Source of the DNA: Cytospora piceicola | Taxonomy: Eukaryota; Ascomycota; Sordariomycetes; Diaporthales; Cytosporaceae | Reading direction: 5' to 3' | Length of the DNA: 64,000 nt | NCBI GenBank assembly: GCA_023375675.1 | Contig: JALQBC010000015.1 | Location: 1-64,000 of the forward strand | In this document: positions 20,021 through 59,997 of the stretch, piece by piece | Position numbering within the stretch: position 1 is the stretch's first letter | How the letters are laid out: each line of letters starts with the position of its first letter | Program-made: the position numbers and the translations under genes | Notes under the pieces: model-generated | What the model was told of the DNA's origin: nothing | What the model saw: the letters and a program-made list of their open reading frames with translations, nothing else | Databases searched by the model: none

Positions 20021-20390
20021 TTTTTTCCTATTTTCGGCAGGTCTTAACTCCTAAGACACTGTTTTTAGAGTATATTTTCGAGTTTAAAACCTGTTTTTAA
20101 AGTATATCTCGAGTCTAAGGCCTATTTTTAAAGTGTATTTTCGAGTGTAATATATATATCGTAAGTTAAAACTTATCTTTAGAGTTTACCTTCGAGCCTT
20201 CGAGACTATAACTTAAGGCTAGCCTTCGAGTCTTAATCGTAGTTATCTCTGTCTCTATATCGCCCTCGCCCTTAACCTTCGAGTTTTAATCGTTTAGCTT
20301 CTATTACGTTTAATAGTCTTCTGTCCTTTGTTTATCTAACTGTAGCCGTATCGGTAATATATTTCTAATGTATCTTACGGTTAGTCTGTT
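20021..20390 (+). repeat. Left terminal inverted repeat of the giant element (RIP-mutated copy)
   Basis: Starts near TTTTTTCCTATTTTCGGCAG and continues GTCTTAACTC, TAAGACACTG, CGAGTTTAAAACCTG, GTATATCTCGAGT. The reverse complement of 59620-59997 reads TTTCCGATTTTGGCAGGTC, then CAACTTATAAGACAGTG, CGAGTTTGAGACCTG, GTGTATCTCGAGT in the same order. Most differences are C-to-T or G-to-A in this left copy. The match continues through GCCCTCG, TAATCGT and TTTAGCTT to the CTTACGG motif at 20374-20380. Confidence 0.85.
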
Positions 20391-20960
20391 ACAGAATACG
20401 TAATATATAGTCGGTTTGCCCCGGAAGATCTACGTACGATGCCTCTTATAATCGGTCTGCTATAGTCGGCTTAAGCTATACCGAGTAGGAAAGGCTATAC
20501 GGAAAGAGTATATCGTATACTCGGTCCGCCGCAGGATACGTAATTACTTAAGTAGTAACTGCCTAAGTAATAGCTACAATACTTTTATAGTCGGTCCGCT
20601 ATAGAACACGTAACGTATAGCTATAATACCTTTTATAGTCGGTTTACTATAAAAGATCTATAATAGCTACGATACCTTTACGGTCGGTCTACTACGGTCG
20701 GCTTAAGCTATACCGAGTAGGAAAGGCGATATAAAAGGCTACGATGCCTTTTATAGTCGGTTCGTTATAAAAGACGAAACACGGAATACGTAACGTATAG
20801 CTACGATACTTTTATAGTCGGTCTGCCCCGGAAGATCTATATATAATACTTTTTATAGCTAGTCTGCCTTAAAAGATTTACGATAGTTACGATACCTTTT
20901 ATAGTCGGTCTGCTACAGAACACGTAACTAGTTAAGCTACTTATAGCACTTTTCCTTAAG
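20391..20960. repeat. Left subterminal repeat array
   Basis: Several degenerate copies of a unit containing TATAGTCGGTCTGC, GGCTTAAGCTATACCGAGTA, GGAAAGGC, CTACGATGCC and ATACGTAACGTATAGC, seen for example at 20436-20500 and 20675-20770. The same unit occurs in opposite orientation inside the right end. Subterminal repeats of this kind are usually binding sites for the element's transposase. Confidence 0.7.
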
Positions 20961-21020
20961 ACTAATTTAGCTATAATAGCTATAATAGCTATAATAGCTG
21001 TAATAGCTATAATAGCTATA
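20960..21020. repeat. (AGCTATAAT)n short tandem repeat
   Basis: About six copies of a 9-bp unit AGCTATAAT at the inner edge of the left subterminal region. RIP-type composition. Confidence 0.75.
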
Positions 21021-21056
21021 ATTATAAATACGGTAGTAATTATACAGATATAGCCG

Positions 21057-21315
21057 GTTAGTAAGCTCGCCTTTTAATTTCAGCGACCGGTTTACTAACC
21101 GGTTATATCGATTCGAATATTCGACCGTAACCTTAACCTTAACCTTAACCTTAACCTTAACCTTAACCTTAACCTTAACCTTAACCTCTTAAGTACTTAC
21201 TAACCTAAACGTTAGTAAGCTCGCCTTTTAATTTCAGCGACCGGTTTACTAGCCGGTTATATTAAATTAAATATTATCGACTATAACTATAACCTTAACC
21301 TTAACCTTAACTTTA
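21057..21315. repeat. Duplicated about 154-bp unit ending in a CCTTAA hexamer array
   Basis: The stretch GTTAGTAAGCTCGCC ... CAGCGACCGGTTTACTA(A/G)CCGG occurs at 21057-21107 and again at 21211-21260. Each copy is followed by an array of the hexamer CCTTAA: about nine perfect units at 21131-21187 and a shorter, broken array around 21290-21312. The unit contains an inverted-repeat motif ACCGGTTTACTAACCGGTT. The hexamer is one base away from the ascomycete telomere repeat CCCTAA. Confidence 0.8.
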
Positions 21316-22244
21316 ACCTTAACTACGTTATAATATATACCGATATTAATAAGGTCTATAAACTTATATACAGTTAGATTAAAATAAAGTTAAGGTTAAT
21401 ACTATTAATTAATATATCCTTATTATCGTTTATAAGTATTTATTATATATACGTTTATAAAGTATATTAGGCCGGTCTTTCTTTTAAGATTATATAAAAC
21501 ATTAAAGACTAACTAACTATATAAAGTATATCGTTTCCTTTCTTTAACTTAACGGTAAAAGCCTATTACTCTTTATTAGTAGTTTAGCAGCTTTTATTAT
21601 TAATAGTCTAGCGGTTTTTATCGTTAGTAGTTTAACAGTCCTTATCCTCTTTATCCTCTTCGACAGTAAGCCTTTTACGTTTAAATAATATCGCCTTAAA
21701 AAAACCGCTTTAAAAGATATTAAAAGAAGACCGATTATAAACCTTATAGCTATTAGCTAGCCTAATAGCCGTAAAGCGGGTATAACTATATACTATAGTA
21801 TAATCGATACCGTCGGTAACTTAATAGTTAAATAAGTAGTACTTTTTTTTAACCTCTATTATCTTAGCTTAAACACGTTATTTACGTTTAAGGTATAGCT
21901 TTAACTTATTTTACGTAGCGATTTAGTATATTTTAAAAACGAAGATATAAACGTAGCCTTAATTATCCTTTAAAACTAGGCTAAAGGCGTTAATACCCGG
22001 TATATAAAGCTCTTTAGATATTTTATAAACGTTGTTTATAATAGGGAAGGCTTTATAAAGGACTTTATAAAGGCCGGAGCCGACTAAATGTTATAAGTAT
22101 TTATATATATAAAGGGAATTAGATAATACTTACAGAAAGTTTTAGCTTTACTTAAGTCTCGGGTTTCGGATATTTTATTAATAAAGTGAGTAAGTAATAA
22201 CGTTAGATAAGTTTTATAGTTTTTTAGCTAGGTAGTAATTAGTT

Positions 22245-22475
22245 TAAAAGTAAAAGTATATAAAGTTTAAAAGTAAAAGTATATAAAGTTTAAGAGTAAA
22301 AGTATATAAAGTTTAAGAGTTTTAGGCTGACTAAGAGCACCGATAGTAGATAATTATAATAAGTAACTAACAGATCTTCTCTTTAAAAGTTAAGTATATA
22401 AAGTTTAAGAGTTTTAGCTAACTAAAAGTACCGGGACAATAGATAAATATAATAAGCAACTAACAGATATTTTTT
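22245..22475. repeat. Tandem repeats with AAAGTATATAAAGTTTAAGAG core
   Basis: A short unit of about 26 bp is repeated three or more times at 22245-22320. The last copy starts a longer unit of about 115 bp (TTTAGGCTGACTAAGAG ... AACTAACAGAT) repeated at 22300-22370 and 22405-22470. Both are RIP-mutated. Confidence 0.65.
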
Positions 22476-24689
22476 CGTATAGAATTAGTCTATATTTAAA
22501 ATAACGATATTTTATAGAGAACTATAAAGGTTTAAATTAAAGTTCTTTATTACTTAGAAACACTATATACACTTTACCTTACTGCCGCTAGCTATATAGA
22601 AATAGCAACCCCTATCTATTAAGTAAGTCTTACCTTATAGACAAGTCTTACTTTATAATAATGTCTGATTTACTATCGATAAGTAAAAAGAGAGAGAAAG
22701 ATATTATATAATATATAAAACTTATAGAGTATATAATAGCTAATAGCGCTTTATTTACTTAGCTATTTTTATAGTTTTAGCTACTAAAAACGTTTATTAT
22801 ATATAGGTTTCGGAATTATAAGGTTTCGAAATTATAGATAGCTAGTAATATTTAAAATATATAGTATAAGTAAGAGTTTTAAAAAGGGATTTTCTAACTT
22901 AAGTATCTTCTTATAAATAAGATACTAGCTAAATAAAAAGACAAAAAAAGAGCTAACTAATTAAAGCGATAAAAGCGATATACTAATCGAAATTACTAAA
23001 CGGTATTATACGATTAACAGCCGAAATAAAAGACGTTATATTATACGTTTATTTATTTAACTAAAAGAATTAATTACTTATAATAAGATTTCCTTATAAA
23101 TATATTAAAAACTATATTTAATATATTAAAATAATATTCTATTAAGTATAGAATATACTTAAGAAAATATATACTTTAGTATAAAGTATTTACTTAAGTA
23201 AGTAAAAAAAAAAAAAAGGTAGATAGTTAACCGAGGCGCTTATAAACTAAAGTAACTATTAGCCTAAAGATAATTATAGCTACCTTTACGTATCGTATCT
23301 CTCTTTTAACCTATTAGCTATAAAGGCGATTTAACCTATTAGCTACGAGTTTTATAAGGTTACCTCTTACTATAGAAGTATTAGGTTTTTATTTAATTTA
23401 ATACCTTTAGAATAGTATTAATCTTTAATCTTTTTCTCGGTTCTATATAGCTTATTAGAGTTAGAGATTAATATAGGTTTAAGTTTAGGTTTAGTTTAGT
23501 CCGGTAATGTTTATTAGCGACGGAAATAGCGGTTTATCTCGATATACCTATAAAACGTATACTTTATATACTAAAAGCTATACTTAAATAAGAGGTAACT
23601 TTAACCGGTTATCTAACTTAAGTATAGACGAAAAGGAGGTATATATAGTAGCCGGGGTAGGTACTTAAAACGGTCTATAGTATAAGAACGAAACGGTAGA
23701 ATAGTATAAGGGTATAAACGCGGCTAATATAGCGTAGGTATATAAGTTTAAATAAAAACGGTATAAGACTTTTTAAACGCTTACGTTAATTAAAAGGTAA
23801 CGTTTTAAAGTGCTTATATAATTACTACTTTATTAACTTTAGCTTTAACTATAATAACTACTTATTTAAATACTTAGCTTAGTTAAACGTAAAAGAAGTT
23901 AAACACGAAGGAAGCTAAATACAGAAGAAGCTAAACGTAAAAGATAGATTCCTTACCTCGAGTTAGTTATAAAAGGTAACCTCTTTCGCTACCTTATTAA
24001 AGGTATTAGGTTAAGCTACCCTTACGCTTCCGATTCTAACTAAGACTTCTATATAGAAATAAACAGACTAAAACGATAAAAAAGCTAATATAATTCTACT
24101 TAGCTTTATATATTATATAACTTACCGAAAGTCTACGTATACGGCTATAGCTATAGCTATAGCTACCCGGCTTAAGGTTTATTTTCTATTATAGTATAGC
24201 TTAAAAAAGGTATAAATAGCCGAGGCGATAATAAAGCGATAATAAAAAGCGGTTTAAGTTAAAGGATTTCTTTACGATAAGTCGAAGTAGCTATATTAAA
24301 GAAAGCTTTAGCTAAAACGTTATAAATAAATTATTAGCTAACAATAAGTTTACGATCGTTTAAAAATAGCCTTTCCGCTTAAGCCTTAATTATTAAGCCC
24401 GAAATAGGAAAGCCTTATAAGATACTATCGTATCTTTTATAACTACTTACTAAATATCTCGATAGAGATATAATATAAAAGATAGTATATAAATAAAAAT
24501 ATTACTACTATCTTTAAGATATTATAATATAAACTCCCGGTATTCGGTTTAAAAACTTATAAGTAGCTTAGCTTATTTATATTATTAAAACCCCTCGGCT
24601 TTTAAATATTTAATAAAAAGGCGATAACCTTTTAGTTTATTAAACTAAACGCTATCGGCTTAAATATATTAATTTCTTACCTTAAAGTA

Positions 24690-25085
24690 AAGATAATATA
24701 GCTTTAGCTTAGCCTTTTATACCTTCTCTGTTAAAAGAGCTTACCTTTTATACCTTCTCTACTAAAAGAGCCTTAGCTTAACCTTTTATACCTTCTTTAG
24801 TAAAGGTAAAAGAGCTTACCTCTTATACTTCTACTAAAAGAGCCTTAACTTAGCCTCCTACCTTTTCTTTAATAAAGGTAAAAGAGCTTACCTCCTATAC
24901 TTTTATTAAAAAAGCCTTAGCTTAGCCTTTTACCTTTTCTTTAATAAAGGCAGAAAAGCTTACTTTTTACACCTCTGCTAAAAAAGCCTTAGCTTAACCT
25001 TCTACCTTTTCTTTAATAAAAGTAGAAAAGCTCGCCTTTTATACCTTTACTAATAAAGCCTTAGCTTAGCCTTTTATACCTTTTC
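24690..25085. repeat. Tandem repeat array, about 65-75 bp unit
   Basis: About six degenerate copies of a unit reading GCCTTAGCTTAGCCTTTTA, CCTTTTCTTTAATAAAGGTA, AAAGAGCTTACCTC. Copies differ mainly by transitions. On either strand the array may have been a repetitive coding region before RIP, but no frame survives. Confidence 0.75.
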
Positions 25086-25247
25086 TGTTAAAAGAACTTT
25101 ATAAAGAAATCGTAAAAATATCTATCTTTAATAGATTCCTCGACTTAAGATTAAAGTATAGTTTTACCTTACCGGCACTTATATAGATAGATTATTTTTT
25201 ACGAAAACTTTATATCGAAATAGTTAAATATAACTTATTTACAATAA

Positions 25248-25372
25248 AATTAATATTTATAAACTCGGCTAAAAACGATAAAATATCGGCGTTTATAAAC
25301 TCGGCTAAAGATAATAAAATATCGGCGTTTATAAACTCGGCTAAAGATAATAAGATATCGGCGTTTACAGAA
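25248..25372. repeat. Tandem repeat, about 40 bp, three to four copies
   Basis: Copies of GTTTATAAACTCGGCTAAA followed by GATAATAAAATATCGGC lie head to tail. They differ by single transitions. Confidence 0.8.
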
Positions 25373-28300
25373 TAAACGTTATATAGTATATAAATACCGA
25401 GCGAGATAAATTCGTTAAATTAACTTTATTTTAGTAGTAAATATAAACCCGCTTTAAATAACTAAAAACGATATTATCTTAGTCGATATATAGTCTTCCT
25501 TCGAAGGGCTAGTGTTCGAGAATACCGAATAGATCGAGTAAGTTATTTTACTTTATACCTTAATAAAAACTAACTAGTCTGTTACCTTAAATAGTCTATT
25601 AAACTTAAAAATAATAATTTTAACCTTTTCGATATTCTTTAAATAAAAGTATAACTACTGCCGGATAATAAACGATAACCTATTATCTTTTATAGACGGT
25701 ATATTCTATATAAAGTAAAAGAAGGTTTTTAAAAGCTAGCTAAGCTATTATTATCTCGGTATTATTATACTTAACGGTAATCCTTTCTATCCGGGCCGCT
25801 ATTATAAAAGCCTCGAATACGTTATAATAGACCTTTATACGTAGCTTAATAACCCTAATAACTACTTTAAAAAGACCGAGAAGCTAATAGTTCGGGTTTA
25901 TAATCTTTAACTATATAATCTTTTAGCTTAAATTAAACGGCGTTATAACAATATCTTCCCCTACTAAAGCAATAGCGAATATAACTAAAGTACGTTTCTC
26001 TTTATATTAACGTAATAAACTATTTATAAAGCAGAACTAACTTTAACGTATAAGCTAATAGGTCGGAACGTTTATTAGAAGTTAAAGGATTAACTATAGT
26101 AAAATTTATTAAGACTAACTTATATTTAAGATATATATATAAGTTTAAACGCTTTATATAAAATAATTACTTTTACCTTAGATATTCTTAAAGGTTATTA
26201 ATAAGATAAAGCTTAATAGATAATAATATAAATTATATACTCTATACTTATATATATTCTTTTTATATATATATAAACGGACTAAATTCCGGATCGGTTC
26301 TCTTTTTACTTTATTAATTTAATATAATATATAGTTATATTTAAAAGATATAATATATATATTATTACCTATACTTACCTTCGGCTAGTTTCTATAAAAA
26401 CCTAACTTCTTTCGGCTCGTTATAAATTATAATAGCTTTAAAGACTTAAGGTATTTATAGGCCGAGAAGAAAAAAGGTATAGCTTACTATACTAAAGTTT
26501 ATTATAAGGTTTATTATCGATTTATACTAGCTTTTAATTATCTCTCTCTTATATAATTTATAGTTTTAAATCTAATACTATACGAGAAGCTAACGCTATA
26601 GTAATAACTAGCTAATAAACTCCTTTTTTTATATTTAAAACGGCTTTACCTTATTTATAGGTTTTAAAAAAATATAAATAAAAGCTATATATAAATATTA
26701 ACTTTAAAGCGTTACTACTATAGTTACTTCTTTAAATCCTATTCCTTTATATAATACTACTTAAACCCTATACTTAATACCTATTCTACCTTTTTAGCTA
26801 TTAAATTACTCGGTAATAGCTTAAACGATATCTTTAAGTACTACTTTTACCTTATCGTCGAAGCTTAAACTTCGATAAGCCGGGTTATTTTTAAAGTATC
26901 GTTATAATAAAAGAAAAGGTAACCTTAATAGGTAAAGACCCTTATAAAAGACTTAATAATAGTATAGAAAGGATAGAAAAACTATAGCCGGTCGACTCTC
27001 TTTTAAATCCCCGATAAGTAATAAAGCTAGCTAAGATCTATAGCGATAATAACGCCGAATAAGACCGGTAGCTTATACTTAAACGAAAGAAATATATACT
27101 ACTATAGTCGTAGCGTTTTTAAGCCTTCCGGTATACTTTTAAACTCTTTTAATACTTAAATTTAAAGTAAGACGCGTTTAAAGGTTATTAAGGCCGTATA
27201 CTATCTTATATTAGCCGTTCACTTATATACCGAAAGGGCCGACGTACTTAAAGGAAATAAAGCGGTTTATACTTTAAATATATTAATAAGATAGGTAGTT
27301 TACTTCGGTATAGTAAAAAGACGTAGTTATAGTATTTCGTTTTACTTTAGTTAATATAATACAGCTTTTAAATAAGATAGTTAAGATTAATATAGAACGA
27401 GTTATAGTATAAATAGCTACCGTTATACTTAATAAACGGCTTATACTTAACTAAGTTATCGAGTTAGATCTTGCTTTATAGCTAGTATTCTGTTAAGAAT
27501 TAAGCTAACGCTTTAAATAATATAGTAATATAGTTCCTTTCTTTATAAAACTTTATATTATTAGTATTATATCGGCTTTAAGGTAAATAACTTATTATAT
27601 AAGGTACGACTAGCTTTAAGTACGTTACCGGCTTAAAATTCTACGTTAAGGTTTCCGATAATACCGCTTCTTACTTAAAGGTTAAAAAAACGTATATACT
27701 AGAATACTTACGTATAACGCCTTATAAGTTTATTAGCTTAACTATATATTAGTCTAGCCTTTACTTCGTTTTATATATAAGCTAAAAGACCTCTTTTTAC
27801 TACGTAAAGACTTTATTCGACTATTTAATATTATAGATAGGTATAACTTTAAAGTAATTCTTATAGTAGTCTTAGCGCTTCTTTAAAACGTAAGTCTTAA
27901 AGTTTATACTAAAACCGACTAAATAGTCGTTTAAATACTTTAAAAGGCTACCGATAGGAATATAACGGAATACTTTATTACTACTATAGTTATAAGCTAG
28001 CGGCTAAATTTATTTTTTATAAGGCTATATTACTAAAAGGTCGACGGTAATAAAAGTATAGCTTATAGCTTTACTGTAAACCTTTTATTAATATTGTATA
28101 TATATATAACGCTATAGATTCTATAGCTATAAGAAAGGCTTTTTATAAAAGGTATTATCGAGCCGCCTCTTGTAGTACTAATATATTAAGCCTTATTTAT
28201 CGTTTATAATAACGTTATAATACCGGGTAAGAGGCTTTTTATACTTCCCGGCGTTATAGTTAAATACCTTTAACCTTTAACGTTATTAAAGTATCCGATA

Positions 28301-31990: not shown

Positions 31991-34900
31991 AGCCTATACG
32001 TCCCGGCTTTAACGTCGATACTAAAAATACTTTAGCCCTAGCTATTAATTTCCTAGCCGAACTACTTATTAAGTCTTACTAAGTAAGTCTCCTTTATATA
32101 AGGTTAATAGCTTAGCTAATATAAATAATAACCGGAAAACCTTTTTATCGTATTTAATAATAAGGTAAAGGGCTTTAGTATAAAGACTGTCCGGAAGGGT
32201 AAAATACTAAAGGGCTAAGCTATTACTTATATCGAAGCTAGTAAAGCTATTAAGAAGATAGCAGTTAAAACCGACCTCGATACTTTTAGCTAAAAGCGTA
32301 TAGTCGATATAGTTAAGTCTATTAGTAAGTCTTTACATATTCTTATAAAAACGGCTACCGTTATAATACTAGTATATCGCCTTTATTTAGCTTAAAAGGC
32401 CGAAGCTAATATCGTATAAAACGATAGTAATAACAGGTAAAGTAAAAGAAATAAAGCTTAATAGTATATTTAGTTTTTAATACTAGCCGATAAGTCGTAC
32501 CTTTTAAACGGCTTAAATCTTATATATATATATAGATACAGAATTATAAGTAGTACTTTTTTTTACTTTAGTTTTATTTTAAAGTAACGGTTTTAATACT
32601 TATTTTAGTTTAATATATTATAAACTGTTTTTAACCTAGAAATTTTATCTTAAATCTATAAAAAGGTTACAGCTTATTAATTAACCGGCCGAATAATTAA
32701 TAGTTTTAATTATAAGAAGTATATTCTTAACCTAACGTAATAACTATAACTACTCTATTATATTTAATACTCTTAATATTATAATTAAAGGTCGTAGGAA
32801 ATAGCCGTTCGGTATCGAATATAGTTATATAACCGCTTACTAGAATTTAGGTAAGGAGTTTATAAATTCGATAACCTACTATAAAGTTTAAAACTAAATA
32901 ACTAAATAATTAATCTATTTACTATAAAGGGGCTTGTTTATAACATTTAAGCTAATTATAATATCGCTATTACTATAAAGCTTCTTTAGCTTTTTAGTAT
33001 AGTTATTTTTTTCCCGGTTATAAGTAGTTATATTAATATATATACCCGAGTAGTAGGCTAAACCGGTTTTTTTCTCTTTTAATCGTTAAAACTACTATAA
33101 TCTTAAGATAGCGCTCTTATATACTAAGGCCGTAAATAATTTAAACGATAAAATACCCTTTTACGCTTAAGCGTAAAGTACTATAGGCGCTATAAAAATC
33201 GAGGCTATAGCCGTTAAACCTATAGCTAAAGCCCTTTTAGATTTATAGGTTTATCGCTTATAAGCTTAAAACGAAGGTTCCGGAAGGAGTTATAAGTATA
33301 TTTAAACTCTTATCTCCGCTCTTCTCGAGTAGCGTTAGCTATTTCGATACCGAACTTACAACTAAAGCGCCTTAAAGTATTATTATCGGCTTCCGCTTAC
33401 TACTTAGCCTTAAGTTTAAAGGCCTTTTTTAATACTATATCTGCTAGTATAAAACCTTTATTATTATCGACTTCGCTACTTAAAAAAGTAACTTCGTTAT
33501 TTTTATTAAAAAGACTATCGTTTATTATAATATCTCCGTCTTTACCTTTTTTATTTACTATAAAGATAATAAAAAGAAAAAACATAAAAGGTTTATACTA
33601 GTTATCTCTGTTTTTACTTTCTTCGCCTTCCTTTACTATAATAAAAAGAAAAGCTACTACTATAAAAGCGATAAAAAAAATAGACGTAAAAGGTTTTTAT
33701 TATATAACTTAACTAGGCTATAATATACTAAAGAAAAGAGTAAGCTATCGATAGTAACGAGCCTTTCTATAGTATATATAGTTAACGTAGGTATTACTAG
33801 TATAAAACTTAATCTTTAAACCGTCTGCCTTGTTTAAGTTAATATAACATTTAATAAAAAGACTATTACCTTTTATATACTATCGGTAAAAACCGAGTAT
33901 ATAAATACCTGTAATTTATATAAATAAGGTAACGAAGTTTTTAACTTAATATATACCTCGGCTATTACTTATACTCTATAAACGAAAACAGGTGTTTTAT
34001 CGTAGGTTATAAATAACCGCGTTTATAGCCGGTAAGTCGAGCTATAATACTATTAATAAAAAAGGAAAGGAGAAAAAGGATAATACTTACTAATTACTTA
34101 ACCTTATAATTTATTAAGTAATAGTTACCCGGAAATCTTATAACTAAATCTAAATACTTTGCTTTAATAACCTTTTAAGCAGATCTTAATATAACTAAGG
34201 CCTTTAAGTAATAATATTAATTAAAATATAACCGTTTAGTAAACCGGTCGATAAAGTTTAGTAATAAATTTACTAAAACCTTACTTTAAAGAACTTATAA
34301 TTTAAAAAAGTACTAAAAGAGGTAGTAGAGTTAAAGGTTACAGAAGGGGCGATAAAAAACATTATTAAATAAGTAATTAATTTAAACAGTATTAAAATAT
34401 ATATATTAAGAAAGTATATTATACTTACTAAAAGATTAAAAAAAAGGTTAACTATAATATTTATTATTAAAAAACGTTAAACGTTAATATTTTACTATAG
34501 TTTAATATAACGTTTATATAGTTAAAGTAACCGGTTTAGTAACCGGTCGCGTTATTATAGTAATACGTTACTATATAGGTAACTATAGTAATATACGTCT
34601 TAAATCTAAGTACTAACTATATTTATAATACAGCTAGTAGTATAGCTTTTATATAGCTAATATAACCGGTTCGGCTACCGGTTACGTTATTATAATAACG
34701 TATTTTTATATAAGTTATAACTATTATATTAAATAGTTAGGTTATAAACATCGTAGTAGTATTATATATATAATTTTAATTTAAGCTATTAAAACCTATT
34801 ATATTATATACCTTACTTAAATTTAAATTAAGTATAAAATATAGATCTGTAGAAACTAGCTCTTTAGCGTTTACTTAAAGGTTTTTAAAAACCTTTAGGC

Positions 34901-37900
34901 CTTTTACCTTTATATACCTTACTATTTTTATATACGTTACTTTATCGACTTACCTTCTCGCTTTATACCCTTTACTAAACCTGTTTTCTAAATAACTATA
35001 ATTATTAAAGCTAATTTAAATAGTTACTTTATACTTAATAGCTAGATCTATCCCGTACCTTACTTATTTTTATTAATAACACTACCTTACTTATACCTAT
35101 TTAAGTACTTAGATATAGTATTATAATAAGCGTATAAACGTAACGCGCCTTAATTAAGTCGCTATTTAATCGTATAATCGGAATAATATAAGTAAGTTAA
35201 AGTATTTATCTTATAGCGCGCTTATAATCTAGCTCGACACGATAGCTTACTTTTTCCGTATTATAGTAAAGTTACTTCTCGGTCTTTTACTTTAAGATAT
35301 TTACTAATTTAAAGGTAAATTCTTTTAAAAATCGGTAATATAACTATTAATATTAAGACCGATAGATTAAAAAATAACTAGCCCGATATCTACTTTAATA
35401 TATACCTTTTAACCGTAAGTAATTAAAAGCTTAAACTATATATCGATAACCTGTTTACTATAAACCTTAATAAAGAAATAATACTTACGATCTTCGTTTA
35501 GCTGGGCGCCCGGTTTATAGCCTGCTTTACTATTAACGATAAGTTTAATAGTAAGTTACTCGATACCTTTATATAAGAGAAAAGTACGGTAAAAGCTATA
35601 TTAGTATAGTTACGTAAACGTAAATAAGTATAGTATAGCGTTTTTACTAATAACGGCTATATTAAAAATAGCCCTTATAAGGTATATTAAAGTATAAAGT
35701 ATAGCCTCGGGTATAAAATACCTTTTATATATTACTACCGGCTTAAAGGTATTTATAACGAAGGTATTTTCAGTAGAAAGTATAGTAACTTCTTATAAGA
35801 AGAGAATATAATAGTAGTAAAAAATTTAGACGATATAAACAAAACAGAGGACCGGGATAATATAAACAATACTAAAAACTTAAACGATATAAGCGATATA
35901 AAAGACTCGGACGATATATATAACGTTAAAGACTTAAACAACGTTAAAGATATAGATAATATAAACGATACAGAGGACTTAAACAGCGTAAACGAAGTAA
36001 AAGATTCGGACAGTACAATTAAAGTAAAGGACTAAGATAATATAGATAGTTTCCGAGAAATAAAGGTTAAAAGTATAAGAAGTACTTATAAGGAATAAAT
36101 ATAAAGAAAACAAAGGTTAAACTATATCGATAACTTTTTAAAAATAAAGGTCTATAGTATAAATACTTAAAAAAAGGATATATTTCTTTTAGTTTATAAT
36201 TAGACTAATATAGTCTATAACTAAATAAGGAAACAGATCTTATCTTAAAGTTAATTTAAAATATCTTAATACTTTATAACATTATATCCTCTAATATTAT
36301 ATTATTAATATACCTCCGGTATTATACCCTTTAATAATATATCGTTAATATACCTCCGGTATTATATCTTTTAATAATATACCTTTAATATACCTTTAAT
36401 ATTATATCCTTTAATATTATATCCCCCGATATCTATTATCCTTTAAACTTAAAGATCCCCTTAATACTAAGTATCCCCCGGGATTAAGTATTATTAAGTA
36501 GTAGATATTATTAGGTAATAGATATTATAGGCTGTTTCCTAAAACCTTTCTTAAAGACTAACTATTATATAATTAACCTTTTTATTATAATATATCTAAA
36601 CTCGAAAACTATAATATAAACCGCTAAAACACATCCTCTCTTAATAAACAACCTTTACCTTTTTTAAAGCGACTTATCTTAAATATCTTTACTACTATCT
36701 ATATTAAGGTTAGCTACTTTTAAATACAGCTCTTTAATAAGAAAAGAGTTAGGTAATATATAAAGAAGCTCGAAAGCTAGTATATCTATTAATAAATCTA
36801 TTCTACTAGTAATCCCTTTATAGTTTTAAATAAGGAAACAGGTAAGGTCTATTAAAAAAGCCTTAACCGCTCGTCTTTAAATAACGTATTTAACGTTACT
36901 TAAGATAAGATAAGGTATTTCGTATCTATAAGTAATGCCTTAAAAGAATATATAGGTATACTTATTTATTAGATTAAAAGGACGGTCCTTAGTAAAGATT
37001 AAACCCTTAAGACTAAAGCCGGCTTACGTATTATAACACGCTATAACCTCGGTTAATAAACTAAGTTCTTATAATAAAATTATTAGATTAATTATAAAGA
37101 AAGATAAGAAAAGTATACTTACGTTAGTAATCTTAATAATTAAGTTACCGAGTATATTAAAGTTACCTATCTCTTTTATAAACTTAAAGTTAAGGTTACT
37201 AGTTGCTAAGGTTACTACTAGCTTAATAAAAGGCTTCTAAATGTCTTTTAGCTTATATACTAGCTTAAAAAGTAAAGCGAGGTATAATAATAACATTAAG
37301 TCTTTAATAAAAGCCTTTATTATATAGATATTTATTATAAAGCCTTCTGTTAACAGCTAGCTCTAAATAATATAATATATTAAGTATATATAATAAGAAT
37401 TAAAGGGAAATATATCTTATTATAATACACTTATACCTAAATAAGCAGAAGTACTATAAACATTTTAAGCTGCCTATAAAGTTAGACTTATAGCTATATA
37501 AGGATATAATTAAGTAATTAAAACGTATATTAGTATTCTTATAGTTTAAATTATTAATAAAGATAGTTAAGTAAACGTAGTAAGAAACTTCGGTAAACTC
37601 GCTAATAAGACGGTATACTAACTTATATAAACTATACTTACTAATAGTAAAAAGTTAAGTATTATCTTTACTACCGTAAATAGTAATATCGATTAAAGGA
37701 GTATAAGAAAGTTCTCTACCTTAACTATTAAAACCTTTATTAAATAAATTAAGGTTAAACTATATAATAGTCTTAAAAAACTGTTACTCTATATTAAAGC
37801 CTATTATAATATTATTATCGTACTCGCCTTTACTAAAAGTAAAAGGCTTTTAAGTATTTATATTTAAACTAGTTTTTTATATAGCTAGTCTTTTACTTAA

Positions 37901-44850: not shown

Positions 44851-44959
44851 TATTATATATATCGACTTTAAAGACTTTTAAGAGATTTTCTTATAAATAG
44901 TTATTTAAGCTATAAAGACTAGAACTAAGATAATAAAAGGAATTTACGGCAGATTCGGC

Positions 44960-46440: not shown

Positions 46441-49400
46441 TCCCTTTTTCTTTATCGTTTAAGCTACTTTATTAGCTGCGATAAGGTTTAATTAAACGTA
46501 GTAAATAGTATTGCCTAATTATAAGTTATAATAACCTTAAGGCCGACGACTTTAAGGCCGATAACTTTAAGCTCGCTCCTATCCTTAGAATCACGTAGGC
46601 TAAAAATGTGTAGTTTACCTTTTCGTTTTAAAACATCGTCTTTTATTTTACCTTAGTCTTAAGGCTAAACCCTTTCCGTTTCTTAATTATAGCTATAAGG
46701 CGATTAATAATATAATAAAGAACTACTTTTTAATCCCGGTTAAGCTAAAGCTATTAAACGTTAAAGACAATATTATCGTATTATTTTAGTTATATTAGTA
46801 ATCTGCTACTACTATTAATCGAAAGGCTTAAGGGTATATTTAGACTAGCCGCCGGCTATTTTACAAAAAGTATAAAGACTATTAAGGTTATTAAATAGTA
46901 AGATTAATTAAGTCTTTAAAAACTATCTGTTAATATAACTAGTTATTTTATATTCTATAGAAAGTTACAGTATAGTTATATTTTAACGTGCTCGAGATAT
47001 TATTATAGTTAACCTATCGGAAATATAAAACATACTATTAGGTTTCGCACTTTACCTTTAACTCTTATTTTATATTCCTGCTAGTTAAGTACGTTACTAA
47101 TATTTAAAATTAAACCTTACTATTATAAAACTTTCTAACCTATATTCTAATAGTTTATTTATATCTACGTATATTTTAGCTATCTTTTTAGTCGGGGATT
47201 AAACGTATACTTAAAGACGAACTTAACGTATAAGGTTAAAAGCTTAGTTATTATTATAGTTATTTAACTATCTATTTATCTCGTTACTTATACTCTCCTT
47301 AATAACTACCTTTTAAGATATTCTCTTAATAAAGCTATATCGAACCCTTTACTAAGATCTATATTAATTACTAGAATACTACCGACTTAGTAACGTATTA
47401 TAAAAGCCGTTTACTTTTAAAGCCTAATACCGACCTATAGAAATAAACTAAAAAAAAGCTATTACTATACGCCGTTATATATAATATAAGTATACCGTAA
47501 AAGCTTTTTTAAACTATATATAAAAAGGTAAGAAAAGCGTTAGACTTAAACCTTAACTTTATACGTATACTTATAAAAGACTAATATAAACTACAGGTTA
47601 AAAAAAAGGTTATAAAAGTATAGATTCTTAAAGATATTATTTATAAGATTACTAAGCGACTATAGCCGGCAGCTATACTTATAGGTCTATCTATAGGTTT
47701 ACTTATAGCGATATTAGCTTAGCCTGTTAAAAAAGATCCTGTCTGCTTTATTTTCTACCTTTAATAATAAGGATTTAATAATATTTTCGACGTTATTAAC
47801 TTTTATCTTAATACCGAAGCTACCTTACCTGCCTATTATATTATATTCGATATACTTCTGACTTTAAAAACCTCCGACCTCTTTATAAGCTTTTTACCGG
47901 CCGGCGTTTTTAATAGCTTATCGACTCTTTTTTAAAGCCGGCGGACACGTTAAGTTTATATAAATATAAATATATTCTAACGTATATTTAACGTAGTAAA
48001 TATACCTTTCGTTAACTTTACCCCGGATATTACTTATAGCCGCTTCGTTTTTAATATATTAGAAAAGATAGTTATACATAGCTTTATACGGCCTCCGAAG
48101 CCTTATAAGCGTAAAAAAAACTAAAGCTTAATATCTTTTATTTAAAAGAACCCGTCGTAGGCTTATAACCTGTTAGTAAACTTTATAAAGGTTATCGATA
48201 CTAAGTACCCGGACGTTACTACTATTTTAATAGATAATAAAAACGGCTAAAATACTAAGAAAGCTATACAGGTTTTTTTTTAAAGTATAAGCGATATTAA
48301 TAAACAAGCCTTTATAATAAAGATATATACTATAGGTATTTAGTAAACCGCCTTAAACTAGCTCGAAGTTTTTTTTAAAATTATTAAAGATATAAACCGG
48401 GTAAGTAAAACGATAGATAAGGTAGTTAATAAAATAAGGCGTTTTAATATAACGATTCTTAATAATAACGGTAAGGCTTCCGATAGCGCTAAGTATAATA
48501 GCGGGTATAAGGGTAGGCGGGATAATAGGCGGGATAGTAGCGGCCGGGCTTACTTTAAGGATACGATAAAGACTTAATCTATTACTCCGGGAATAGCTAT
48601 ATATAAGCTATAAAAACGGTTAGAACTAAGTATAAATACTTATATAAACTTATTACTATAATAGTCTTATCGAAGTTATAACGTTACTTTTAGTCGGTAT
48701 TAATAGCCTTATACGTATAGTACCGATAATATAACCTTAACCTTCGCTATAGTTAATAATCTTTACTACGGTTTATCTTTAGCTATAATAATACTAACGG
48801 CTAAGCGAGCTATAAGTAAATCTAAGTCGACTTTTAAAGTAAAAGGCTATATACTCGCTTAGTTTATATATTAGTAGCTAGATATCGGCTACCTTTACCC
48901 GGCTAGTTTTTCCTTCCTTTTCTTTATTAAAGGCGCTATAAGTTAGTAAATTATAAGCCTTATATATAATTAATATTATAACTCTTCTTACTTAAAAAAC
49001 GTTTACGTAGTATTATATACTATTAATATAAAAGGTATAGTATAGTAGCTATCGTTTTAATTAGTTAATATAAGAGGGAAAACAGGCGTTAAAACGAATA
49101 GTATAAATAAGTATCGATATTATATATATATTTTATTTAAAGAATCGATCTCGATAGAGATTATCGAAAAAGATAAAGATAAGAAACTTATAGTAGTAAT
49201 CTCTTTTATACTCGGTATATATATAAATTATAGATATATATTTATTTTAATATATACTTTTAATATTATTTATAATCTTAACAGGTAAGGTATAAAGTAA
49301 ATAACTGTTTTATTTATTTATAAAAATATAACTATTTCTCGGATTAATATTTTAGTCTTTTTTCTTTTATAATCTTAACTTAGTCTACTTATTATTTACT

Positions 49401-52270: not shown

Positions 52271-54944
52271 ATTACTTTTATTAATTATAATTATATTTAA
52301 AACAGTTTAATAAAAGGTAGAATATTACTTTATACTTAACCTAACGTTTAAAGATAACGGTATATATAAGACGGTTTATTAGCCGTATACTAAATAGTTA
52401 CTTTTAGCTTAACTATACCTATTTTTTAAACGTTAGCTTTAATCTTTTAAAACTAAGTTAAATCGATTTTATTAAATAGCTTAAAAAATCTTATTTTTAA
52501 CTTAGTATAGCTTTAAAGAAGAAGCCGTGTTTTTTCCGTTCTCTTTCCCTTTTAATTTTTTTTTAGTCCGACTAAGCCGGAATACTACCGGAAACTATTA
52601 TATATATACTATTATAGCTTTATCTTCGAGTTAAGTAAACATTTTATTACCGGTATTTATTTTCTTTAAATAAAATAGTTAACGCCTTCTCTTCCGTTTT
52701 TTTTAATACGTCGAATATAAGTTAAAAACCTTTATAAAGACTTATTTCTTACGTTTTACTTACCCCGACTCTTTTATCTTTTAAATAATCTTTTAAATAG
52801 TACGTTTTATAAAAGGCTTTCTATTATTATATAGAAGATTACTATATAAAACCCGGTACTTTTACTATATTTACGCTACTATATCCGGATACCTCCGTTT
52901 AAAGTTACTTTTTAAAATAGGTAAGACCTTTTTATATATCGCTATATTAAGGGAGACGCTTTCGTTATTTAATAAGAGCTGCGAAACTAGCTTAGCTTTT
53001 TCTTTACTTTTCTTTCCGTCGACTAAATATAGAATATCTTTATTATCGAGCTTTTCTTAAAGCTAAGTCGGCGTTTAAAAGAAAACACCTTTTTTTAGCT
53101 TTACTTTTACCGTCGGCTACGCCGGCTCGATACCGGTTTTTTAGTATATAGGAAGCGTACGCCTTTTTATATAAAGGAGATCTATTAAAGTATCGACTAA
53201 TAAGTTTTAGTCTAAGTAGATAGTTATACCTATACTTTATAGCTAGTTATCTAACCTTTATCGCGGCTATATAATGTCTTTTACTTAAAGACACGTCTGT
53301 TTAAGCGTAATAGCCGTAAGGATATTACTTCGTCTTTATTATTAGTTATCGCTTAGGTTAAAGATAATATATATACCTTTCGAAAAGCCCTTATTATAAG
53401 CGAGCTTCCGCGTTAATAGGATAATTATAAAGATATCGTTTTATAGCTAGTTTTTAACCGAGGTAACGATATTATACTTAGCTACCTTTAAATAGTTCTT
53501 ATATTATAAAAGCTTACGTTTTAACAGAATAGCTATCGAAACGTTTATTAGTAGCCGATTAAGACTAGTATACGAGGAAACTGTTTAGCTTATTAGTCTA
53601 TAAGCCTAAACAGGTTTACCTATACTTTTTAAAAGATTTAAATACTTTAGCCTTATATCTTATACGATTAGCTTAACGAGTTTCTTTTAAGATATTTCGC
53701 CCGAAGCCGACTGTATATTTCTACGTTTAAAATATATATATATACTTTAATAGTTTATTATAATTATATCGAGGATATTAAGTAGTAGTATTTAGTATAT
53801 ATTTATATTAGATTATAAGTTTTTATTAGCTAAAGCGTCGGTAATTAATAAATAAGTAACAAGTAGTTTATATTATTACGACTTTTAGTTTCTTTTATTT
53901 AGTAAAATACGTCGGTCGATAACCTATTAGTATAGCTCTAGGATTATTATTTCGAATAATGTTTTCGACTTACTAAGTATAGGCTATACTCGTTATATTA
54001 CATCCGGTCGGTTTTATTCTTAAAGTTAAGACTAGTAATATATAAATATTAGTTTTAAATAAAGTAATAGAGAGTAGGTATAAACCTTAATATAACTCGA
54101 GACGATACTTTTCTTTATTTAATACTTTAACTTAAGAGTTCGGTCTTTAATCTTTTTAATTAATAAGTTTATAAAAAGTAATAGTTTTTCTCCGAACAGG
54201 TTATTTTATAGTAACTCGAACTCTTATAGCGCGAAAAGGACTATTAAATAGCTAAGGTCGGACTTTTCTATAATCTTTTACTAGTTAGTAAAGCGGTAAA
54301 AGTAGTTTTCGGTCTATTAGTTTATATACTTAAGTATTTCTTATATAAGGATAAACCTTATTAGTATCGGCTTTTCTCGGTTTTTTAAGACTATAGTATT
54401 TTCGAAAGTTAGTAAATAGTTTAAGTATAGTTAGGTATATATTAGTATAAGACTTATAGTTTTATTTTCTAAATAGCTAAATTCAGACTTTAATATAAAA
54501 GTTTTCTAAATAACTAAATAAGTTTACTAAGTATCTTTATTAGGCACTTTTATTTTCTGTTTTTTAAAGGTAGATTAAAAAAGGTATATTTAAGCTAGTA
54601 ATATTAAAAGGTTAATACTGCTTTTTAAACGCTATCTTAAATACTTAGTTTTATCGGTATTTACTATTAAGTAGAAATAATAATAGGTATAAAAAGAAAA
54701 ATCTTTTTAAAACTTTAAAGATTTAAGCTTTTATTAAATACTTAACCTAATACGATATAAACCTACCGATCGATATAACCTTTAAGTATATTTTAACCTT
54801 AAAAGTAAATATTAAAAGAAGTCGAACGTTATATATAAAAAGTTAGCCTTAAAGATTAAATCCGAACCTTTACGCTTTATTATTAAATAAATACTACGCT
54901 AAAGTTTTAATATAGTTTTATTATTAAGCCGTTTACTTACTATC

Positions 54945-55165
54945 GCCTATCTAATAAAAATACTATTATTTAAATATCTCGATTATTCTGCTTTCTGTTA
55001 AAGCGATAAGCTAGTCGATAAAAACGCTATTATTTAAATACCTTATATACCTGCCTTATACTACTCTCTGTTAAAACGATAAGCTAGTCGCTTATCGCCT
55101 ATCTAATAAAGATACCGTTATTTAAGCATTTCGTATACCTTATACTACTTTCTGTTATTAATATT
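54945..55165. repeat. Tandem repeat with CTATTATTTAAATA...TTCTGTTAAAGCGATAAGCTAGTCG
   Basis: Three degenerate copies of a unit of about 70-100 bp, each with an AAAGAYACYRTTATTTAA-like part and a CTTTCTGTTAAARCGATAAGC part. Confidence 0.7.
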
Positions 55166-58100
55166 TAGCTTTTTATCGAGTAACTATTATATAGTAAGCT
55201 AATACTACTTTTTAAGGCTATTATAGTTACTTAACCGACCTAACAGATATCTAAATCTAACTTATATAAACTAAACAGATATAATAATATTTAAACTATT
55301 AAGACTATAAACAGACTTACTTTAAATTTTACTTTAGTTCTACCTGCTTCTTACTTTTAATATTATACTTAATATTTTATGTAAGCTTAGTTTAGCTTAA
55401 CACTTATACTACCTACTATTATAAATAAATTTACTAAACTAGCTTTTAATACTAAGAAGTTATCTTTTAAGCCGACGCCTGTGCAGATGTAAATTACTAA
55501 TCTAGCCTTTAGCTTTATAGTAAGTCGAAACTCTTTATATCTACTTCCTTACTCGATATTAATTCCCTCTGCTTCGTAACTAACCCCTCGAGAAGACTAC
55601 CTAATAGCCGACTAACCTTATATAATACCTAGCTAGTTATCGACTAAGCTATCGATAGTAAGTTAAAAAGTATTTTATTCTTTATCTCGACGGATTAATA
55701 TTAATAATCTTAGCTAAAGCTAACCCTTAAAAGAAAAAACTAACTAGCCGACTAGTTTTATATAATACCCGAGGGTTTATTCTAGCCTTACGTTAAAGAT
55801 AAATACGTAATTATCGTTAAAGTAGTTTTTAACTAAAAGGCTAGCAATAAAGTGTTCCTAGTCGGTTTTAAAGATATTATTACGTTGAGACTAAAAGACT
55901 ATATATTTCTGTCTTATTTTCGAAAAAACGAAGTATTTATACCCGGCCTTTCTTAAATATAGTATAACGAACGTATTAAAGACGTTATAAACAGCTTTTA
56001 GCGAAACTTTTATAAAATCCCTTCGGCTAATATTACTTTATTAAAAGCTAACGAAACCGATTTTTTAAAGCTATAAGCCTTTAACTCTTTAACCGGCTAA
56101 AACGTTCTCTTCTTTACTTTACTATTTAACGTATTTTTAAAAGCTTTTATATTATTCGCTTTTCGTTAAAAAGCCTTATACTACTATATAAAGGCTAATC
56201 TTATAGTTATTATAAGCTTCTTTAACTAAGTAAAAGGCCCGGATATGTTTATTTTAGATTTTATAGTCGCCGTCTGTTAGTAAAAGGTTTTATAAAATAT
56301 CGAAACGCTTTAAGATTAACGCCTTCTCGTTCTTTAATAGTTTACCGTCGTTATAAAAAACCTTATAACTACTCGACTTTTACTAAAGCTTAATAACTAA
56401 AGACGTTAAGCTCGGCTAAAGTAATAAGCCGAGATAACTAAAGATTTAAAGATAGTTCTTAAGACTATCTTTATTAAAAGAAAGACGCGGCTTTTAAGAA
56501 AGAAGCTTATAAAGGCTAAATATCCGCTTTTTACGTTTTATTATAATACGAACCGATCTCTTAATAACGTATTGGTTTAAAAGGCGTCCCGGATCTAATA
56601 AAGCTGCTTAGCTATTTTTAAAAGCTATAGCTTCGGTAAATCGGAGTTTAAAACTTATATATTTCTCGATAAGACGTATATCTGTCCCTTTTATATCTTT
56701 TACTATAGCTAGCTACGCTTTTTTAGCTATACGATCGGCACTTTATATACTATATTAGTTTCGTTAGATTTCTATATAAAATATAATAAAGCTATAGCAC
56801 GCTTCGACTTTTATAAGCCTAAACTAGGTATTTATTAAAAGCGGTTCTTTTTTTAGATTATTTATAATATTTTATAATAAGTTATTTAAGCTATTTAAAA
56901 GGTTAGTAACCGGAAGATAGACGACTGTTATTCGTTAGACTTTATATTTAAAGTTTAATAGTCGATTATAGACTGTTAAAGCTTTTTAATCGTCTTATTT
57001 GAGAATAGCCTTTTCCGGTACGTTACTACTATATAAAAACCTCTGAACTTAGTAATATTTTTAAAGTATTAGAGTTTTTTATTACTAATAGTTAAACCTA
57101 TTAAGTATTTAGACTTATTTAATCCGGTAAAAAGCTTTTAAGATAAGTTTTATAACGTTATCTAAGATAGTAATATTATTAATAAGGTTATAGGTACTTT
57201 AGATCCCTTATTTTAGTTAGCTTAGTTTACTTACCTATCGTAAATCTTAATAAGTAGACCGTTTTAAAAGCTCGAACCTAAACTTAGTAAAAAGCGATAA
57301 GCTTTAAAAGAACGTTTTAAGATAAAAGCCCTTAACTTTTTATTTCCCGATCTTAATATACTAGACCTTTTATACGTCTAACTTATAGATAGTTAAGACT
57401 AGCCGCTTTATTTCCGATACTTATACCTATATTACCTTTTTTCTAACCTTAACGCCGGTTAATACTAGTATTACCTTAACCGCTTTTATAGTAAGTAAAG
57501 GTATAAGTATAACGATTATTAAAGGTTATTTTTTAACTAAAAAGCTTTAAAAGCTTATCGAAATATTAACTCTTATTTTAATATAAAGGGTATTCTCGAC
57601 TAAGCCTATAACTTCTTTTAGAAATACTTCTATTATAACTATATCGACTATATTAAAAAGTAAGAGAAATTCGGTATAAAATATTATTTAGATTAACACC
57701 GTTAAAGTTATATACCTTTAAAAAAGCAATCGCCTCCGATAATAGTTTACGAATACGGCTTTTATTAAGCAGATAAAATAAATTTATTTAGCTAGTATTA
57801 ATCCTCTTGATTTTATTAACAGTATATAAACGACCGTAATAAGTTTAACTAAAGGCTATCGAAAACGTTTTAATACTCGATCTGTTATTTTAAGATTAAC
57901 GATTAGTATAATTAAAAAAGATATAAAAGTTCGGAATCTTATAAAAAGGTTATCTTTTATTTTAACCTCTATTTTAAAGGTAAGATAGATATTATCGATA
58001 AGGCTATCGTTTAAACGTAAAAGGCCGTTTAAAAGCCTTTTTTATCGTAGGCATTTTAAGATTCTTAAAATAACCGTAAAGCTATATAAGATCGCGGTCT

Positions 58101-58269
58101 ATAAAAGAGAAGCTAAAGCGACGAGTAGAAGGAAAAACCTGTTATATATTAAGCTTATAAACTAAGCTTTTAAAATATAAGTTATCGTAATATATATCTT
58201 AAATCTATAGAATATAAATTCCGAGATTCTACCTTTATTCTGTTACTATAGAAGTATCGTTATTAGCTT

Positions 58270-58614
58270 TACGACTTCGAGACGAATATCTTTTACCGGT
58301 TGAAAAAATATATAGTAAAGCGTTATTTAGTATTTAAAAATATGCCGTTAAACCTTGTAAAAAAGGTTAAGAACCTTTTTAAAAGGCTTCGAGATATCTT
58401 TTTAAACGACGACGGTATCCCGACCGACTTAAAGGAACTCGTATATCTTATATATCTTTATAGTTCTTTTCGTTAGCTAGTAAAACTTATAGAACACTAC
58501 TTAACAGGCAGATACTATATAAACTACGATATACTTAAGTCGATCGATAACGATATTTCGATCGCTTATATAAAAGCGTACGTATATCTTAAACGAGAAG
58601 GTTAGGTATCTGCT
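58270..58614 (+). pseudogene. Decayed coding relic near the right end of the giant element
   Basis: The longest readable protein-like stretch in the element: a forward frame of about 115 codons broken by only two TAG codons (both explicable as CAG to TAG). It reads as a normal-composition protein, for example RLKKYIVKRYLVFKNMPLNL, LNDDGIPTDLKELVYLIYLY and YIKAYVYLKREG. Protein-like text with RIP-type stops can be followed upstream to about 57540 in neighbouring frames. The stretch still has some CA and TG, so it is less mutated than the centre. By its position next to the right end it could be part of the transposase or another element protein. I recognise no domain. Confidence 0.5.
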
Positions 58615-58639
58615 AGACGTGTTACTGTTAGTAAAGGTA

Positions 58640-59035
58640 TTATTAGATAATAGCCGGTTTTAAAACGTCGGAATTCTAACGATAATTACTTCTTAGAGAG
58701 ATTTTTAAAGTGTTAGTATTCGAAGCCGACCTTAAAACGTCAGAATTCTAACGATAATTACTCTTCGAAGAGATCTTTAAAGCGTTAATGCCTGATATAT
58801 CGACGATTATTACGGCTAGCCGCTTTTTAGCCGTCGAGTAGCAGTATATCGATATTAATATAAGTAGTAACGTTAGACGATATTATAAACGAAGGTAAGG
58901 ATAGCGTCGGTAGCAATAGTAGCGATAGTTTTAAGGCTAATTATACCGACGATAGTTCTAAGGCTAAAGAGGGTTCTAAGGTTAATTATACCGACGATAG
59001 TAATAATAGTTTTAAAGGTAAATAATAGCTTTAAT
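58640..59035. repeat. Two tandem repeats downstream of the coding relic
   Basis: A unit of about 85 bp with TTAAAACGTCGGAATTCTAAC and GATAATTACT occurs twice (58650-58725 and 58730-58795). Further right, TTATACCGACGATAG-(T)TCTAAGGCTAA units occur at 58938-59000, reading as a Ser/Asp/Lys/Asn-rich forward peptide (NYTDDSSKAKEGSKVNYTDD) that ends in TAA near 59024. This fits the disordered C-terminal tail of the protein encoded upstream. Confidence 0.6.
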
Positions 59036-59279
59036 AGTAATAAAGTAATAACGATAATAACTTTATAATAAATAAGGGTAAGGATATTTAAATTAAGATA
59101 TATGAATTTTAAGCGTTAGGATATTATATAAACGATTATAATAATTTATTACTTTTATCGCCTTTAGTATTTAATCGAATAGCCTTCCTTTTTATCCCTT
59201 TTACGCCAGAGGCCCTTTATAACTAACCTTTAAACGAAATTTTTACGTCGTTTATATCGTAATTTAGTAGCTATCTTTA

Positions 59280-59620
59280 TAGTATACGTTACGTTTTTTA
59301 TAGTAGACCGATTATAAAAGGTATCGTAGCCTCTTATATCGCCTTTCTTACTTGATGTAGCCCGGACCGACCGTAAAAGGCATCGTAGCTATTTATAGAT
59401 TATCCGGCTAGACTGTTTAAGGCATTATAGCCTCCCGTATCGCCTTTCCTACTCGGTGTAGCCTAAGCTAACCGTAGCGGACCGGCCGTAAGAGGCATCG
59501 TAGCTATACGTTACGTGTTCCGTGTTCCGTCTTCCGTAGCGGACCGACCGTGAGAGGCATTATAGCCTGGTATCGCCTTTCTCACTCGGTGTAGCCTAAG
59601 CCGACCGTAGCGGACCGACC
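59280..59620. repeat. Right subterminal repeat array
   Basis: Three to four copies, in the orientation opposite to the left array, of a unit with TATCGCCTTTCYYACTCGGT, GTAGCCTAAGC, CGACCGTAGCGGACCGACCG and TAAGAGGCATCGTAGCTAT. Copies lie at about 59330-59400, 59420-59510 and 59555-59635. RIP damage falls off toward the right, so this copy shows the unit in better condition than the left one. Confidence 0.75.
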
Positions 59621-59997
59621 GTAAGACGCACTAGAAATACTACCTACACGGCCACGGTTAAATAATCAGTGGTCTATTCCACTTAGGCGTAATAAAAGCT
59701 AAACGATCAGGACTCGAAGGCCGAGGGTCGAAGGTTAAAAGCGATATAGAGACAGACGGCTACGATTAGACTCGAAAGTCGAAGGTCGAGGGTCGAGGGC
59801 GACATAGAGACAGTGTTAATAGTTACGATCAGGACTTAAAGACTAATTCGAAGGTCGAGGATATGCTTTAAAGACACAGTTTTAACTCACGATACATGTA
59901 TCACACTCGAGATACACTCTAGAAACAGGTCTCAAACTCGAGAATTTGCTCCAGAAACACTGTCTTATAAGTTGAGACCTGCCAAAATCGGAAATTA
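59620..59997 (-). repeat. Right terminal inverted repeat of the giant element (little RIP)
   Basis: Reverse complement of the left terminal repeat, ending outward in GACCTGCCAAAATCGGAAAT. It keeps many CA/TG dinucleotides (for example GATACATGTATCACACTCGAG) and so is close to the original terminus. It also has an extra duplication of a GACCCTCGACCTTCG-like segment relative to the left copy. Confidence 0.85.

Follow-up and report, generated by a model that had tools for sequence, protein, structure and literature searches.

The stretch analysed here (the window) comprises positions 1 to 64,000 of contig JALQBC010000015.1 of the fungus Cytospora piceicola, in which a HET gene is split by an AT-rich block of 40,016 bp (positions 20001-60016). 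We interpret this block, with a probability of roughly two in three, as a copy, decayed by repeat-induced point mutation (RIP), of a family of giant elements that moved whole, likely by means of their own recombinase and without duplicating the target. The units of this family are mostly 33-49 kb long and were copied or moved as a whole. Apparently they represent a giant inverted-repeat element family of undescribed type; in the source texts available to our literature search, whose scope left out the bioRxiv collection and subscription journals, no description of such a family was recognised. It is in our estimate an even call whether they form a new superfamily of giant eukaryotic DNA transposons (33-49 kb) independent of Starships, with near-invariant paired ends, gene 1 as a novel recombinase joining the two strands at a single point after a pyrimidine-purine step, and a recombinase-end cassette that is traded between classes.

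The block and its ends

The limits of the block were set by comparing the ends of many copies, and they define a complete element of class A, which has a colinear 84% copy at C12:574145-613980. Its left terminal inverted repeat (end 1; 20001-20804, plus strand) contains subterminal repeats and starts with CCCTTGTTAACCGAGAGCGATTTTTTCC, and the right one (end 2; 59267-60016, minus strand) reads inward CCTCGACATCGAGAGGCGATAATTTCC; both are identified by their inverted match and by motifs found genome-wide. The first-pass annotation had described the two ends as inverted copies sharing ordered motifs. Self-alignment of the window bears this out, with 20012-20804 matching 60007-59267 at 62.5% over 830 columns (E 1e-42, 171 bits) and two more inverted pieces (126 and 90 bits) between the block ends, and the motifs recur in order at both ends. 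The length of 360-380 bp given there did not hold, the repeats being about 0.75-0.8 kb long when subterminal repeats are counted in. Among the inverted pairs of the window the end-to-end match ranks second, after an internal duplication (206 bits; 23007-23865 / 42036-41147) whose second duplicate resembles the module adjoining end 1 in class B elements. The remaining pairs do not exceed 74 bits, save a self-complementary AT-rich alignment at 36875-40699 (139 bits).

Both termini are kept almost base for base across copies. Judged by eye, end 2 carries a terminal palindrome (CCTCG-ACAA-CGAG) and end 1 has no clear hairpin. The GC content is 0.275 within the block versus 0.540 in positions 1-20000, and the RIP indices TA/AT and (CA+TG)/(AC+GT) are 1.71 and 0.12 inside the block, 0.68 and 1.19 outside it.

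Paired ends across the genome

When the host genome (43.6 Mb) was searched with the right end (378 bp), at least 60 matches were found, many of them forming minus/plus pairs 34-60 kb apart, of the kind that the first-pass annotation had suggested looking for; the left end gave at least 188 matches. The end-1 motif has 22 matches, the end-2 motif 36 at two mismatches or fewer (7 being the class C variant) and a third end type 25. The reversed control pattern of each of the three has none in the entire genome, which excludes chance for the paired ends.

Pairing 84 ends (one of them, in C64, placed by hand) blind to gene 1, the candidate mobilising gene discussed below, yielded 35 adjacent opposed pairs less than 70 kb apart and 14 lone ends. 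Exactly one gene-1 copy lies inside 34 of the 35 pairs, and these 34 span 33-62 kb each and 1.38 Mb altogether, or 3% of the genome. In the remaining pair (C79:1020508-1039285) end 2 and end 1 are separated by 18.8 kb that contain no gene-1 match; this may be an internally deleted, non-autonomous copy. The suggestion of an undescribed, cargo-carrying giant element family is supported by these pairs; the contrary outcome named with it, ends that are solitary or bound only small elements, is not what was seen, one 18.8-kb pair and the 14 lone ends being the cases of that kind.

With respect to end type, 19 of the 34 elements combine end 2 with end 1 (34.5-53.9 kb), seven belong to class C (33.2-36.1 kb), seven to class D including C64 (44.8-61.6 kb), and one has gene 1 near end 1 (60.2 kb). 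The sizes form the classes B (about 34.5-35.8 kb), A (about 39.8-41.8 kb), C (33.2-36.1 kb) and D (about 44.8-48.9 kb), with outliers at 37.5, 49.9, 53.9, 60.2 and 61.6 kb. For 13 further gene-1 copies the second end is unmatched or distant, as in C51, where it lies at 102 kb; the interval between the two C51 ends also contains a DUF3435 relic (C51:181911-182709).

Insertion without target duplication

The proposal that the block interrupts a single gene with both halves preserved was confirmed. The N-terminal part of the HET gene (60017-60582, minus strand, within the open reading frame 59998-60582) retains the HET domain (PF06985, 3e-18), and the C-terminal part (18473-20000, minus strand) is in frame with it when the two are joined directly, the product reading TVV^WLAEGTED. 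Other loci can be rejoined in the same way. The C39 site, the target gene of which we take from its sequence to be HET-like, reads LCRP^WAPDGT; the C12 site reads WVI^QKGAIPLGG and is gapless at the junction against solved aldo-keto reductases; the joined C1a site resembles the ammonium transporters AmtB and Mep2, with a loose alignment near the junction. Direct joining preserves frames of 198-359 codons in the seven copies compared first. In a junction-offset test of 18 sites (about 450-600 bp of flank each, the junction codon being checked at offset 0 only), direct joining was best, with long frames, for the window (194 vs 44 codons), C39 (155 vs 92), C28 (131 vs 102) and C1a (104 vs 69).

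At 21 paired sites no target-site duplication beyond one G at most was found, and both paired sites with a TA step have none; the target consensus of these 21 sites is CTG^GCT. A pyrimidine-purine step precedes end 2 in all 27 usable flanks (19 TG, 5 TA, 2 CA and 1 CG), for which the background frequency of 0.238 gives P about 1e-17. This count derives from 42 scanned loci, from which C22_L was dropped (12 mismatches) and among which C43_R had no end in the fetched stretch.

Near position 348086 of C26 (L072) two elements seemingly abut through their ends 2, separated by TA alone, as if one palindromic target step had served both. Of the 18 insertions with tested flanks, two are apparently in HET-type genes (the window and, by eye, C39), too few for a claim of preference. 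At first all insertions (7 of 7) seemed to hit exons, an impression that was abandoned because several of 11 further sites look non-coding. A frame test with short windows (19 sites, 2 × 75 bp) was non-discriminating, with open frames at 12 of 19 sites for offset 0 and at 15 of 19 for offsets 1 and 2.

Gene 1, the candidate mobilising gene

Gene 1 lies at 55555-58352 on the plus strand of the window, points at end 2 and has a core of about 932 codons with 86 stops; its product of about 940 residues is encoded beside one end of the element. Genome-wide, 47 matches are long, covering 858 or more of 970 residues, and two are short pieces, 47 of 50 candidates having been scored. An un-RIPped copy was sought and none was found, as each of the 47 long matches carries 71-95 stops. 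The coding nature of the region is indicated by core indels that are almost all multiples of three and by an excess of third-position transversions (MAFFT alignment of seven copies), and in all seven copies the second codon position has the lowest GC content. Indel counts from BLAST alignments are noisy in gap placement, and MAFFT was used for gene 1, for the core genes M3, M8 and M10 and for the SNF2-like gene described below. A minus-strand gene, suggested by the longest cross-copy protein match, was dropped because the phase, indel and GC tests favour the plus strand.

In 26 of the 27 copies in which end 2 is the proximal end, gene 1 terminates 1.15-3.9 kb from it (11.6 kb in C90); the distance is 1.55 kb in C64 and, for copies with the class C end, 4.5-6.6 kb in 16 of 17 (15.7 kb in C57). 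Searches for relatives gave no Pfam match in any of seven copies, no PDB match, no protein database relative among 7994 scored candidates and no confirmed relative in viral contigs, which were searched with two short peptide patterns only. Protein searches with the P0002 and A3 queries were likewise empty, RIP-altered queries having lower sensitivity. The protein database does hold fungal proteins, since the protein encoded at 6705-8435 in the flanking DNA has 166 relatives there, the best named match being a Cytospora schulzeri protein of 75% identity. Considering its presence, position and conservation in the copies, gene 1 likely encodes the mobilising protein. By eye, the last 40 columns of alignment A3, at the C-terminus, resemble a decayed C2H2 zinc finger.

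Spread of whole units, RIP decay and mosaic structure

Seven copies were compared at the sequence level (the window, C12, C1a, C24, C28, C39 and C1b), six of them whole and C1b at its ends only. Colinearity extends over about 39 kb between the window copy and C12 and over about 34 kb among C24, C28 and C39, at different loci; C1a agrees with the window copy at its two ends and along long middle stretches, and has other segments in its interior. Since RIP makes transitions, transversions were taken as the measure of divergence before RIP. The window and C12 differ by 4971 transitions and 573 transversions over 39,395 aligned bases, and C28 and C39 by 4799 and 279 over 34,291; in these comparisons 26 of 40 and 26 of 35 one-kb windows, respectively, contain five transversions or fewer, while transitions mostly amount to about 100 per kb or more. 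Few transversions combined with many transitions indicate that the copies were nearly identical there when they spread and decayed later. On this evidence, which holds over most of the interior, the copies spread as units and RIP set in afterwards.

In comparison with C12, divergent patches lie at 20-21, 24-26, 31, 41-45 and 50 kb of the window, and in comparison with C1a divergent places are more numerous (643 transversions over 29,312 bases). The most consistent patch is on the end-2 side and comprises gene 1 with the repeat next to it, about 4-5 kb in all; four comparisons within classes gave 18-131 transversions per kb there, and that of the window with C1a gave 7-34. The gene-1 transversion distances (seven copies) disagree with class: the nearest gene 1 to that of C12 (class A) is that of C24 (class B), at 27.4 transversions per kb, and the window gene is about equally distant from those of C1b (class B, 24.1) and C1a (class A, 23.3). 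Outside gene 1 and end 2 the classes differ by rearrangement and by higher divergence. The simplest reading of these distances is that gene 1 and end 2 form a cassette that was likely swapped between classes by recombination.

Other core genes and cargo

Three further core genes, M10, M8 and M3, are common to classes A and B. The broken M10 (52832-54448, minus strand) is recognised by frame-keeping indels and by GC and transversion phase, and its A-B protein alignment is weak (26-28% identity). M8, also broken, lies at 47420-48493 on the plus strand, with an aligned segment of 1074 bases in 6 of 6 copies, and M3 at 26712-28222 on the minus strand, probably with two exons (aligned exon 27251-28204). 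None of the three has a family match, except two marginal ones, each in one M8 member (E 0.06 and 0.11).

Two interior segments of the window copy represent variable cargo. Both are common to the window and C12; the segment at 22820-26628 is swapped in C1a for one with a SNF2-like helicase gene, and that at 34710-41178 has no C1a match. The helicase gene of C1a (Helicase_C, 2.2e-5; best PDB relative FUN30, 6e-4) also occurs, by cross-match, in the class B copies C24 and C39, and its lack of a counterpart at that place in the window copy marks it as cargo or accessory. Six-frame Pfam scans of C1a, C39 and two window-specific segments found no retrotransposon or known transposase domain, Helicase_C and, in flanking DNA, an ammonium transporter being the sole matches.

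Weighing the explanations

Conserved inverted ends, precise joining and a gene beside one end together argue for a recombinase that is encoded by the element and acts on both strands at the same point, and, given that element and target have no more than one base in common at the joints, recombinases dependent on a shared core are disfavoured. In the proposed mechanism, the gene-1 recombinase would bind the ends of roughly 40 bp and the subterminal repeats, cut the element out at its conserved ends, presumably as a double-stranded intermediate, and attach both strands at a single position in the target, leaving no duplication there. After insertion, RIP turned the copies AT-rich and broke their genes.

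The main rival is a giant rolling-circle element of the Helitron2 type, moved as a single strand by a Rep nuclease, which we regard as unlikely. Such transfer would also leave no target duplication, and the fixed dinucleotide context at the target and the palindrome seen by eye at end 2 agree with it. According to the available text of PMC5148889, the inverted repeats of Helitron2-like elements in Fusarium are asymmetric; terminal hairpins occur in some of these elements, and TGCCT is the start of one group. In the family studied here, both ends are long, similar repeats, the helicase of C1a is SNF2-like and lacks a counterpart at that place in the window copy, and Helitron_like_N (PF14214) occurs at only two places in the genome (C14:1048290-1048820 and C57:602280-602882), both outside the 34 elements. 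One of these two Rep relics was detected at 1e-17 despite 17 stops, and a captain relic despite 11; profiles can detect RIP-hit genes, so RIP alone need not hide a Rep. A Starship variant with long inverted repeats, the tyrosine-recombinase captain of which has decayed beyond recognition, is improbable. Its size range overlaps and its hosts are fungi, and repeat length, by which the first-pass annotation had set Starships apart, is insufficient on its own because inverted repeats are present in 18 of 20 Starships in the available text of PMC12153272. The distinction itself survives on other evidence: direct repeats of 2-12 bp, found in 19 of 20 Starships in that same text, are missing here, with at most one shared base at the 21 paired sites, DUF3435 (PF11917) is confined to the single C51 locus (two pieces, 11 stops together), and the six-frame scans of C1a and C39 contain no recombinase, with the reservation that weak matches might escape detection after RIP.

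An endogenous DNA virus or a Polinton-like element with inverted ends has slightly less to recommend it still. A size of 33-49 kb, long inverted repeats and the presence of several genes would suit it, and Polintons are indeed large, with long inverted repeats, several genes and a six-bp target duplication. That duplication is absent here, no viral domain appeared in the six-frame scans, and a search with two short peptide patterns confirmed no gene-1 relative in viral contigs; the lack of a family-B polymerase match is a weak test, as no control genome gave one. Least probable is a nest, an ordinary transposon enlarged by known transposons inserted between its ends, which the first-pass annotation had offered as its alternative. 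An AT-rich, RIP-hit block and variable sizes would be expected of a nest, and the copies of 50-62 kb and the 102-kb C51 copy may hold later insertions. The tight size classes, the colinear copies at different loci and the scanned parts free of known transposon domains contradict it.

Several observations weigh against the element-encoded recombinase that we prefer. All data come from one genome, and neither present-day mobility nor excision was observed in the data used. No catalytic motif or homolog was recognised in gene 1 or the other core genes, and the predicted fold of the window gene 1 is uninformative (pLDDT, the per-residue confidence score, 34.6). Among the 18 junction sites, C21 favours offset 0 with a frame of only 23 codons, offsets tie at five (C24, C1b, C5b, C15 and C47), another offset is nominally longer at eight (C12, C5a, C7, C14, C16, C23, C36 and C58), and at least six look non-coding; therefore, the case for zero duplication is made by a few coding sites and by flanks without shared bases. 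The copies are also not uniform, since interior patches have 10-117 transversions per kb. Finally, the Helicase_C search matched, among the elements, only C1a, the least decayed copy compared, and absence of a match in RIP-hit copies is therefore no proof of absence.

A neighbouring small element

Near the HET gene, at 60788-63064, the window contains a small AT-rich element with a 39-bp inverted repeat (94.9%), bounded by TACGGAGG and CCTCCGTA, which is possibly Tc1/mariner-like.

Significance and comparison with known systems

Among the giant transposons with gene cargo in fungi, Starships are the best known. A further family of comparable size, without a recognised transposase or target duplication, would imply another precise way to move 40 kb of eukaryotic DNA, and search tools based on the captain are likely to miss it. 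The conserved ends and a gene-1 profile make the family directly searchable in other fungi.

The family shares with Starships its giant size, fungal host, movement as a whole unit, variable cargo and frequent inverted repeats. It differs from them in that no captain was found, in having no direct repeats, in inverted repeats of about 0.75 kb, and in one conserved gene of unknown function beside one end. The Spy group of PHIS transposons has inverted ends and, as here, makes no target-site duplication. Spy inserts within AAATTT (available text of PMC4482050), whereas the elements described here use CTG^GCT-like sites (21) and are far larger. Pfam matches to PIF/Harbinger-like DDE transposases were absent from the core genes and from the six-frame scans, though no search aimed at them and backed by a control was made. 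The lack of target duplication, the terminal palindrome seen by eye and the inverted repeats recall Helitron2 and FoHeli elements, including the FoHeli group that starts with TGCCT. FoHeli elements are about 5-11 kb long and encode a Rep-helicase protein (available text of PMC5148889), and no Rep was found inside the elements here, with the caveat of RIP. KDZ/Zisupton elements are likewise DNA transposons with inverted ends known from fungi; the 8-bp duplications made by Zisupton (available text of PMC12730594) are absent at the sites here, and no KDZ domain was matched, although no control genome matched either. Polinton/Maverick elements resemble the family in being large and in having long inverted repeats and several genes, and differ from it by their duplication and by a polymerase that the weak test did not find here. 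For Starships, Helitrons, Spy and KDZ/Zisupton alike, at least one of their features that was tested is missing from the elements described here.

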